Of a stretch of DNA of 64,000 nucleotides, positions 35,436 through 36,647 are shown piece after piece. A model generated the notes under the pieces. The model was given only the letters and a program-made list of their open reading frames with translations, was not told where the DNA came from and did no database searches. The stretch is from Anaerolineales bacterium (GTDB lineage: Bacteria > Chloroflexota > Anaerolineae > Anaerolineales > Villigracilaceae): assembly GCA_025056175.1 (NCBI GenBank), contig JANWWK010000033.1, positions 1 through 64,000 on the forward strand, given 5' to 3'. A program made the translations under genes and the position numbers. Positions within the stretch are counted from its first letter, which is position 1. The number at the start of each line of letters is the position of its first letter.

Positions 35436-35576
35436 ACGAGTGTTGAACGGGGTGAAAAGTGCATTTCGGTTGCAGATGTTGGCTTTCGCCTGTGGGTTTG
35501 CGGCTGCAAAGCGAGATTGACATGCTAGAATTGTATGTGTTGATTTGCAGATTCTTCTCTCACTGTGTGCTTATTT

Positions 35577-36647
35577 ATGCGCCGAATCTCTTTTCTCGAC
35601 TCGCACACCGGCGGGGAGCCGACCCGTCTCATTGAGACGCTGCCGTTTGCGCTGAAACCCGCTCCTGTTGCGGAACAGTTGGTTCAAATTCAGCGCGAAT
35701 TTGACCATTTCCGTACCGCCATTCTGAACGAGCCGCGCGGTTCCGATGTGCTGGTAGGAGCGTATCTGGTGCCGCCCGCTGACCCAACCTGTCAGTTGGG
35801 GGTCATTTTTTTCAACAATGTTGGCTATCTCGGCATGTGCGGACACGGTACGATTGGGCTGATGGCTTCGCTCTCGTATCGCGGCAGGATTGCGCCGGGG
35901 ACGTATCGCATCGAGACGCCAGTAGGTGTGGTGGAGGCGACGTTGTATCCCCTCACCCCCCGGCCCCCTCTCCCGCAGGGCGAGGGGGAGTCGGCCCTCA
36001 CCCCCTGGCCCCCTCTCCTGCGGGGCGAGGGGGAGTCGGCCCTCACCCCCCGGCCCCCTCTCCCGCGGGGCGAGGGGGAGAGGGAGGCATATCCGAATCG
36101 GGTGGCGATTCGGAATGTGCCGGCGTACCGTTGGCGCAAGGATGTTCCGGTGGAAGTGGATGGGCGTGTGATTCACGGCGACGTAGCCTGGGGGGGGAAC
36201 TGGTTCTTCTTGTGCCACGACCATGCTTTGGAAATTTCACCACGCAATCTCGAAGCGTTGACCGATTTTGCCTGGCGTGTGCGCGAGGCCTACACGCGCG
36301 CGGGCTTGCGGGCGCCCGATGGTCACGAAATTGACCATGTGGAACTCTTTGGGCCCTCTGACCAGGCCGATAGCCGCAGTTTTGTTTTGTGTCCGGGCAG
36401 GGCGTATGACCGTTCACCTTGCGGCACCGGTACAAGTGCCAAACTGGCCTGCCTGGCAGCGGAGGGCAAACTGGTGGCGGGACAGGTCTGGCGTCAGCAG
36501 TCGGTCATCGGCAGCATTTTTGAGGGTTCGGTTCAATTTCAGGACGGAAAGATTATCCCCACCATCACCGGCGAGGCATGGGTGATGGCAGAGGGTTGCT
36601 TGCTGATAGATGAGCGTGACCCGTTGGGATGGGGAGTGCGGGTTTAG
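35577..36647 (+). CDS. proline racemase family enzyme with in-frame repeat insertion
   Basis: 356 residues. Both catalytic Cys are present: Cys88 in MCGHGT and Cys282 in SPCGTGTSA (equivalent to about 237 without the insert). This fits proline racemase or 4-hydroxyproline 2-epimerase rather than the dehydratase, which has Thr at the second site. Residues 126-170 are three 15-residue LTPxPPLxxGEGE repeats not found in the family; without them the length is normal. Upstream sequence lacks a clear Shine-Dalgarno, and GTG 35565 is an alternative start. The enzyme interconverts proline-type stereoisomers in the cytoplasm. It is convergent with the MocR-like gene. Confidence 0.88.
   Translation: MRRISFLDSHTGGEPTRLIETLPFALKPAPVAEQLVQIQREFDHFRTAILNEPRGSDVLVGAYLVPPADPTCQLGVIFFNNVGYLGMCGHGTIGLMASLSYRGRIAPGTYRIETPVGVVEATLYPLTPRPPLPQGEGESALTPWPPLLRGEGESALTPRPPLPRGEGEREAYPNRVAIRNVPAYRWRKDVPVEVDGRVIHGDVAWGGNWFFLCHDHALEISPRNLEALTDFAWRVREAYTRAGLRAPDGHEIDHVELFGPSDQADSRSFVLCPGRAYDRSPCGTGTSAKLACLAAEGKLVAGQVWRQQSVIGSIFEGSVQFQDGKIIPTITGEAWVMAEGCLLIDERDPLGWGVRV
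35950..36084 (+). repeat. three 45-bp GC-rich repeats inserted in proline racemase
   Basis: Units begin CCCTCA at 35950, 35995 and 36040, an exact 45-bp period. Each contains a near-palindrome, CCCCTCTCCC then GGGCGAGGGG, able to form a hairpin. The same type of GC-rich palindrome is widely dispersed in bacterial intergenic regions. Here it stays in frame and adds 45 residues. Confidence 0.9.

Follow-up and report, generated by a model that had tools for sequence, protein, structure and literature searches.

In-frame triplex-motif repeats in a proline racemase gene of an Anaerolineales bacterium and their linkage to DUF559 nuclease genes

The window, the whole stretch of 64,000 nucleotides that was analyzed, is part of contig C74 of a draft genome (G000, 3.57 Mb in 95 contigs) of an Anaerolineales bacterium. 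A gene for a 356-residue protein of the 4-hydroxyproline epimerase/proline racemase family occupies positions 35577 to 36647 of the forward strand; its start was taken as the ATG at 35577, with the GTG at 35565 as a possible alternative. The gene product matched PF05544 in the Pfam scan (8.7e-83), proline racemases of the PDB (2.5e-105), and NF010577 (2.1e-115, though under the curated cut-off of that model). Two TGC codons, at 35838 to 35840 within the motif MCGHGT and at 36420 to 36422 within SPCGTGTS, encode cysteines which we take to be the catalytic pair of the family, and they lie on the 5' and the 3' side, respectively, of a repetitive insert. A separate tandem repeat at the window edge (positions 1 to 259, 78 bp in 3.3 copies with 90% matches) is Pro/Ala-rich when translated and has no relation to the repeat units in the racemase gene.

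The insert at 35950 to 36084 consists of three 45-bp units on the forward strand, all in the reading frame of the gene: unit 1 at 35950 to 35994 (sense, codon phase 1, peptide LTPRPPLPQGEGESA), unit 2 at 35995 to 36039 (LTPWPPLLRGEGESA), and unit 3 at 36040 to 36084 (LTPRPPLPRGEGERE). Units 2 and 3 are direct copies in exact register, each 93% identical to unit 1, and TRF reported a score of 241, period 45, and 94% matches. Translation gives three 15-residue repeats with the frame open throughout. The sequence-only reading of three 45-bp units that preserve the frame and both cysteines was thus borne out. It had also proposed that each unit forms a hairpin, and here the outcome was mixed. Arms of 10 to 11 nucleotides with one mismatch are present in unit 1 (hairpin 35964 to 35988, arms 35964 to 35974 and 35978 to 35988) and in unit 2 (36009 to 36033, arms 36009 to 36018 and 36024 to 36033); the unit 3 hairpin, 36054 to 36078, was positioned from the repeat register that it shares with the other two units and is not listed as a separate pair by the tool. 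Single-unit DNA folds (n = 4) were no better than dinucleotide shuffles (z from −0.5 to −1.1), so the support for the structure comes from its conservation among dispersed copies and not from energy. Folded as RNA, the whole array gave a z of −2.3. A G-rich tract of unit 1, read from the letters on the reverse strand at 35950 to 35960 (GGGGGTGAGGG), recurs at 35995 to 36005 and 36040 to 36050 and, judged by its sequence, could serve as the third strand of a fold-back triplex.

Homologs place the array as an insertion. Racemase family members were found in 24 of the 61 genomes searched, own genome included, and the segment was absent from all 14 close homologs aligned (L010 to L023) and from three distant homologs in the same alignment. 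The nearest homolog (L011, same genus, 85 to 87% identical) has 7 residues in place of the 48 of the window, a net gain of about 41 residues. Among 17 PDB matches, the two with alignments shown, 4q60 and 4k7x, align to racemase residues 1 to 117 and 169 to 347 with 4 residues between. An ancestral loop, which the sequence-only reading had named as the finding that would speak against an insertion if all homologs carried the segment, is ruled out by its presence in 0 of 14 close relatives and its absence from the PDB homologs shown. The racemase insert of this repeat type was observed in one draft genome, and no convincing target-site duplication was found at its borders. A different in-frame insertion was present in the same loop of L010 (genus g9, genome G018), an 80-bp palindrome-like sequence of the GTCATTGCGAG type at 1853 to 1932 (G018:C1:1014064-1014143); this type was found at 19 places in G018 at E ≤ 0.001, the L010 insertion included. 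The loop has therefore been entered at least twice by unrelated repeats.

The unit was dispersed through the genome when searched for inside and outside genes, as the sequence-only reading had suggested doing, which excludes a chance origin of the racemase array. BLAST gave 35 places for the racemase unit in G000. A covariance model, R1, was built from 33 own-genome units, those of the window among them, and gave 128 matches at E ≤ 0.01, a rough count since antisense shadows are included and 150 of 3,001 candidates were scored. The window units, being training members, scored 53.1, 48.0, and 50.1 bits for units 1 to 3. Judged by its sequence, the repeat is one of the intrastrand triplex motifs (TM repeats) that Holder et al. 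2015 described (PMC4666352), and CCCTCTCCCTGTGGGAGAGGGCCGGGGTGAGGGC on contig C24 is identical to TM_ECO No. 1 in Table 1 of that report. The hairpin CCCTCnCCC/GGGnGAGGG is present, and CCCTCACCC was almost invariant across the 33 aligned copies. In a sequence test on the 30 of 33 copies that could be parsed, 264 of 270 class II triads were of the allowed kind, with a mean of 8.8 of 9 per unit compared to 5.8 when the third strand was shuffled. A regular expression applied to the fetched G000 stretches found 107 units in 54 clusters, and the 38 same-strand spacings were 39 bp (25), 42 (4), 41 (4), 37 (2), 45 (2), and 43 (1). The family is patchy among relatives, with a match in 51 of 61 genomes, own included, and from 0 to at least 116 matches each, with about 113 candidates scored per genome. 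Rfam families were rejected as an identity; 13 matches at E ≤ 1 were obtained in two of three loci, none at the gathering score, and 10 of the 13 were microRNA models that fit a GC-rich hairpin. In PMC4666352, TMs are described from more than 260 genomes, with triplex folding in vitro and a link with instability, and the 23 TM_ECO copies of E. coli MG1655 are all intergenic with no mobile-element association found.

In-frame insertion into a gene, which the sequence-only reading had described for the racemase, was correct and more general, affecting at least 15 genes of this genome. Crossing of a TM cluster with at least 35 residues on both sides was observed in 27 G000 open reading frames (longest frame per cluster). 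Pfam was run on 23 of the 27 (four were left out, MetH L136 among them), and in 14 the insert lay inside one domain or between domains of one protein. These hosts were the racemase, a pyridine-nucleotide oxidoreductase (downstream domain below the curated cut-off), a MOFRL-domain protein, a pyruvate formate-lyase (PFL)-activating-enzyme-like radical SAM protein, a xanthine-dehydrogenase-like protein, an apiosidase, a phage-type integrase, MutS domain II, an FGE-sulfatase-like protein, two glutamine amidotransferases (by eye PurQ-like and HisH-like), an aconitase-family protein, GH31, and an alpha-amylase. Together with MetH L136, which carries three separate inserts and was identified via homology to the scanned MetH L219, this gives 15 recognizable genes and at least 17 of the 54 clusters in frame. 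Pfam support for a host gene was absent in 9 of the 23 scanned frames, where L044 and L051 looked gene-like by eye, L130 and L133 had a domain only downstream, and five had nothing. In a second genome, G003 (20 fetched stretches), 15 frames ran through TM units, and 5 of the 8 scanned were supported (GH52, rhamnosidase, amine oxidase, CHAT, and PFL). Four G003 places and a partial G000 match on contig C70 were left out of the fetched stretches. Across 30 genomes, the MutS insert of G000 was missing from the nearest relatives; the tract in G022 was clearly similar, and those in G014 and G017 were ambiguous.

The 55 units in supported hosts of G000 and G003, a few G003 hosts being counted by orthology, were distributed over the reading frames as 13/10/1 sense and 15/16/0 antisense. 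The unused antisense frame (0 of 55) is the one with a TGA stop. Since five frames are used, no single peptide is favored and the stop is avoided. A ten-unit TM array at L044 184 to 569 (G000:C24) encodes about 130 residues inside an open reading frame, and its counterpart in G003 by eye (L169) has two units, which implies in-frame expansion or contraction between species. A short peptide repeat of another kind, PPSPIGTGVTDQY in tandem, lies at L171 1778 to 2200 (G003:C125), at a contig end and immediately after a TM unit.

A DUF559 domain was found between two TM tracts inside MetH. DUF559 (PF04480) was detected in 45 of 61 genomes, counts that may be underestimates because the control E. coli was unmatched although K-12 MG1655 has the DUF559 gene ycjD, and in G000 one detected DUF559 gene stands against 54 TM clusters. 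TM matches at E ≤ 0.01 were present at 13 of the 30 best-per-genome DUF559 loci, almost all within a few hundred bases, and were absent at that threshold from the other 17; no TM was found at 21 control racemase-family loci from the same genome set (72.6 kb). At least 10 TM matches were recorded in 28 of 45 genomes with DUF559 and in 2 of 16 without, counts that ignore kinship. Many TMs were also found where DUF559 was undetected, namely in G007 (40 matches) and likewise in G025.

A set of 84,980 species genomes was then scanned using eight aligned DUF559 domains that are associated with TMs. Of the 321 relatives obtained, the best 80 were kept, a biased sample because the patterns used came from TM-associated DUF559; they span Chloroflexota, Pseudomonadota, relatives of Geobacter and Desulfuromonas, Bacteroidota, Chlorobiota, Ignavibacteriota, Zixibacteria, and others. 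MetH loci, which share descent, make up 20 of the 80. With TM hits counted at 32.3 bits or more (181 of 251 model hits), a TM lay within 250 bp of DUF559 in 65 of the 80 loci, on both sides in 39, and in 59 of 73 when the 7 loci seen before were removed; the other 15 of 80 had no hit of that score within 250 bp. The density of TMs fell from 6.85/kb at 0 to 100 bp and 3.52/kb below 300 bp to 0.11/kb at 500 bp or more, a 32-fold difference. Distances among DUF559 and MetH sequences were weakly correlated (Spearman 0.29, 57 of 2,000 permutations as high), so inheritance is partly vertical.

Other DUF559 clades adjoin other C-rich hairpins, such as CCTCCCC...GGGGAGG and CCCTCTCC...GGAGAGGG. Hairpins of any sequence occurred within 220 bp of DUF559 in 23 of 30 and 56 of 74 loci (3.7 and 3.75/kb over 12.7 and 31.8 kb) and at 700 to 920 bp in 1 of 30 and 4 of 74 of the same loci (0.09 and 0.14/kb over 11.0 and 29.0 kb), 6 duplicates being dropped. 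The hairpin class tracked the DUF559 tree (99 rows, 106 columns; four stop-containing rows and L291 left out), with 21 changes compared to a shuffled mean of 36.7 and 0 of 200 shuffles as low, a clustering that near-copies inflate. The class without a hairpin was not clustered in the tree (108 of 500 shuffles as low). A second DUF559 clade with an FC...SQH motif (L188, L189, L191, L196, L199, L202, and L205) has next to it long CCTCCCC...GGGGAGG or CCTTCCCC...GGGGAAGG hairpins, and the pairing of nuclease and palindrome thus extends beyond TM. On a Synechocystis plasmid, TM-like hits precede and follow the DUF559 domain (32.4 and 27.1 bits, the second falling inside the annotated end of the coding sequence), and weak hairpin hits only, of 12 to 13 bits on each side, were seen at the DUF559 gene of a Deinococcus plasmid. 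A DUF559 match was found in 2 of 50,697 phage records.

The DUF559 gene is frequently embedded in another gene. Of 103 loci with a readable frame (L291, with an unreadable frame, excluded and 6 duplicates dropped), 45 were embedded, defined as having 100 or more open codons to either side, 48 were free-standing small open reading frames, and 10 were unclear. Embedded cassettes, in the order TM-DUF559-TM, are open in frame through the TM peptides into host sequence. Pfam scans of ten embedded loci revealed host domains on both sides in 5 (MetH L219, a HrpA-like helicase at two sites, L236 and L250, MmeI L268, and radical-SAM-N protein L269), one host domain matched as two stretches in 3 (Eco57I L239 and L217 and lipoate ligase L282), and host domains on one side only in 2 (HsdM L265 and Eco57I-type L280). 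The MetH loop motif was found in 26 of 30 loci. Eight of these loops were short (44 to 46 residues), at least 3 held TM peptides only (G007, G015, and G035), 5 held TM-DUF559-TM (G000, G002, G003, G014, and, by eye, G017), and 10 had other linkers; short and occupied loops coexist within one genus. In L265, L272, and L281, from Chlorobiota, Ignavibacteriota, and Bacteroidota records, a cassette enters an HsdM-like open reading frame at the same position, LPCTLWFFDR (L265 being the one scanned with Pfam), which could mean either that the cassettes have a target site in common or that the methylase gene was transferred in its entirety. Locus L237 of Thiohalocapsa sp. ML1, a record with no metagenome-assembly label, has 13 TM hits of at least 32 bits around a DUF559 gene situated in a frame that is methylase-like by eye.

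An AlphaFold model of DUF559 from 51 aligned sequences had a pLDDT of 92. Its first Foldseek match was 3hrl (E 3.1e-7), a Neisseria gonorrhoeae protein that resembles endonucleases, and the second was the homing endonuclease I-Bth0305I (E 3.1e-4, TM scores of 0.69 and 0.75); Vsr matched more weakly (rank 13, E 0.14). The protein is predicted to adopt a Vsr-like fold close to that of I-Bth0305I. Loose motifs persist among the 103 loci (T..E in 98, I.DF in 102, and E-x-DG..H in 103), with the fourth motif, F[RK].Q, being a selection criterion for the loci. In two reports, a DUF559 gene is assigned to the EDxHD homing-endonuclease family (PMC9403480), and a Caulobacter DUF559 protein is described as Vsr-like and DNA-damage-linked, with a role in mismatch repair proposed (PMC12907096).

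In E. coli K-12 MG1655, the DUF559 gene ycjD is located at 1351407 to 1351760, and TM_ECO No. 9, also detected by R1, is present letter for letter at 1351204 to 1351239, 167 bases from it; the stretch from TM_ECO No. 9 through ycjD corresponds to L363 1305 to 1861 (1351204 to 1351760). By arithmetic from 23 TMs in 4.64 Mb, the chance of a TM within 250 bp of one given gene is about 0.4%. In another strain (L367), one TM overlaps the 3' end of ycjD and a further copy matches TM_ECO No. 9. Two E. coli strains without ycjD (L365 and L366) have other genes after sapF and no readable boundary of an empty site.

Taken with the linkage of DUF559 to TM repeats in several phyla, these findings make it probable that the repeats are the footprint of a protein-invading element with a DUF559 nuclease and that the racemase insert is a nuclease-less copy. 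The repeats would be part of a larger element, in which an endonuclease gene of the DUF559 type (EDxHD/Vsr fold) lies between TM hairpins. The nuclease most likely recognizes or cuts DNA at the hairpin, and this action would cause the repeat, or the complete TM-DUF559-TM cassette, to be copied in the manner of homing endonucleases. The cassette is probably translated within the host protein and not spliced out, unlike introns or inteins, and loss of the nuclease would leave TM peptides behind, which is the state of several MetH genes and probably of the racemase. In the latter, a nuclease-less tract, now of three units, would have landed in a permissive loop, grown via tandem duplication in steps of 15 codons, and been tolerated by what may be a working enzyme; it could have been retained because five of the six frames are stop-free and the peptides are small and hydrophilic.

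The repeats could instead have spread and expanded via replication slippage and recombination at non-B structure, with DUF559 genes only inserting at TM sites or being attracted to them, much as fragile sites pick up hitchhiking nuclease genes, without moving the repeats. Tandem arrays with predominant 39-bp steps, the many TMs of G007 and G025, and the instability of TMs reported for E. coli in PMC4666352 are in line with this, but dispersal to new genes is left unexplained, the hairpin class covaries with the DUF559 clade, and TMs stand on both sides of DUF559 in nearly half of the 80 loci; we regard it as unlikely, though the strongest of the alternatives. Mobilization by a RAYT/TnpA-REP tyrosine transposase, as for classical REPs, which are short high-copy palindromes with a partner enzyme (PMC2817692 and PMC8266576), appears the least credible explanation. 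One Y1_Tnp match (PF01797) exists in G000, but it lies on contig C76, which holds none of the 128 TM matches listed, and a RAYT partner was rejected for this genome on that ground.

The papers of Ogata reportedly describe Rickettsia palindromic elements (RPEs) as inserted in frame in unrelated genes, and the sequence-only reading had likened the racemase repeat to them. The likeness in habit is real, with in-frame palindromes in unrelated, here metabolic, genes, as also outlined in the review PMC10969869, and it would fit inserts that were kept for a benefit which their peptide brings to the host protein. The comparison did not hold for the repeat itself, which is a TM with units of 39 to 45 bp against about 150 bp for RPEs as described there, and the TM side is further set apart by the use of several frames with no single peptide favored, an associated nuclease, and presence in several phyla; retention of RPE-like inserts for a useful peptide is accordingly very improbable. 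Slightly less probable again is an assembly or binning artifact in which repeat-collapsed contigs were joined in the racemase. The genome is a draft, and the assembler probably struggled with TM arrays because 13 of the 54 clusters lie within 150 bp of contig ends, but both flanks belong to one full-length racemase gene in frame, in-gene TMs recur in G003, and DUF559-TM cassettes occur in records from other phyla.

The element that we favor, with a DUF559 nuclease and TM ends, shares features with several known systems. The closest are TM_ECO (PMC4666352), with the same hairpin plus third-strand tract in dispersed, high-copy, closely paired or arrayed units, and the palindrome of Enterobacter sp. 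638 (PMC2869309), grouped here with the TM repeats. TM_ECO copies are intergenic in E. coli MG1655, whereas many copies here are in frame within genes, and no mobile-element association was reported for them, in contrast to the DUF559 neighbor found here, E. coli ycjD included. As with REP/RAYT, high-copy palindromes bracket a low-copy gene for a partner enzyme, but the partner is a DUF559 protein of the EDxHD/Vsr fold and not a Y1 transposase, and the repeats enter coding sequence in frame. The EDxHD homing endonuclease I-Bth0305I (PMC3943268) resembles the element in predicted fold, location within host genes, and patchy empty and occupied sites, here at the MetH loop; it differs in that the cassette found here ends in TM hairpins, no intron or intein was noticed around it, and its reading frame continues without a stop into the domains of the host.

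Palindrome-plus-enzyme systems and homing endonucleases are already known, and the literature searched, which covered few subscription journals, yielded no report tying DUF559 to palindromic repeats and no match for the protein-invading habit. A broader proposal, which we hold to be as plausible as its negation, takes TM palindromes to be the termini of a widespread selfish element, as yet undescribed, that consists of a DUF559/EDxHD nuclease gene together with its cognate palindromes. Such an element would home into the conserved loops of essential proteins, be translated along with them unspliced, and leave scars in the form of palindromic peptides that lack the nuclease. A distinct palindrome would belong to each DUF559 clade, and the E. 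coli triplex repeats would be the scars that the ycjD branch left.

PMC4666352, which described the widespread CCCTCTCCC triplex repeats, leaves open what they do and where they come from. A nuclease gene physically linked to these repeats and represented in E. coli K-12 by ycjD would allow direct tests with a laboratory strain. The TM peptides add low-complexity tracts to annotated proteins, and the in-frame inserts indicate that the invasion of proteins by repeats, familiar chiefly from Rickettsia, extends to core enzymes of other bacteria. The empty loop, the nuclease cassette, and the scar form a natural series for how proteins absorb selfish sequence.
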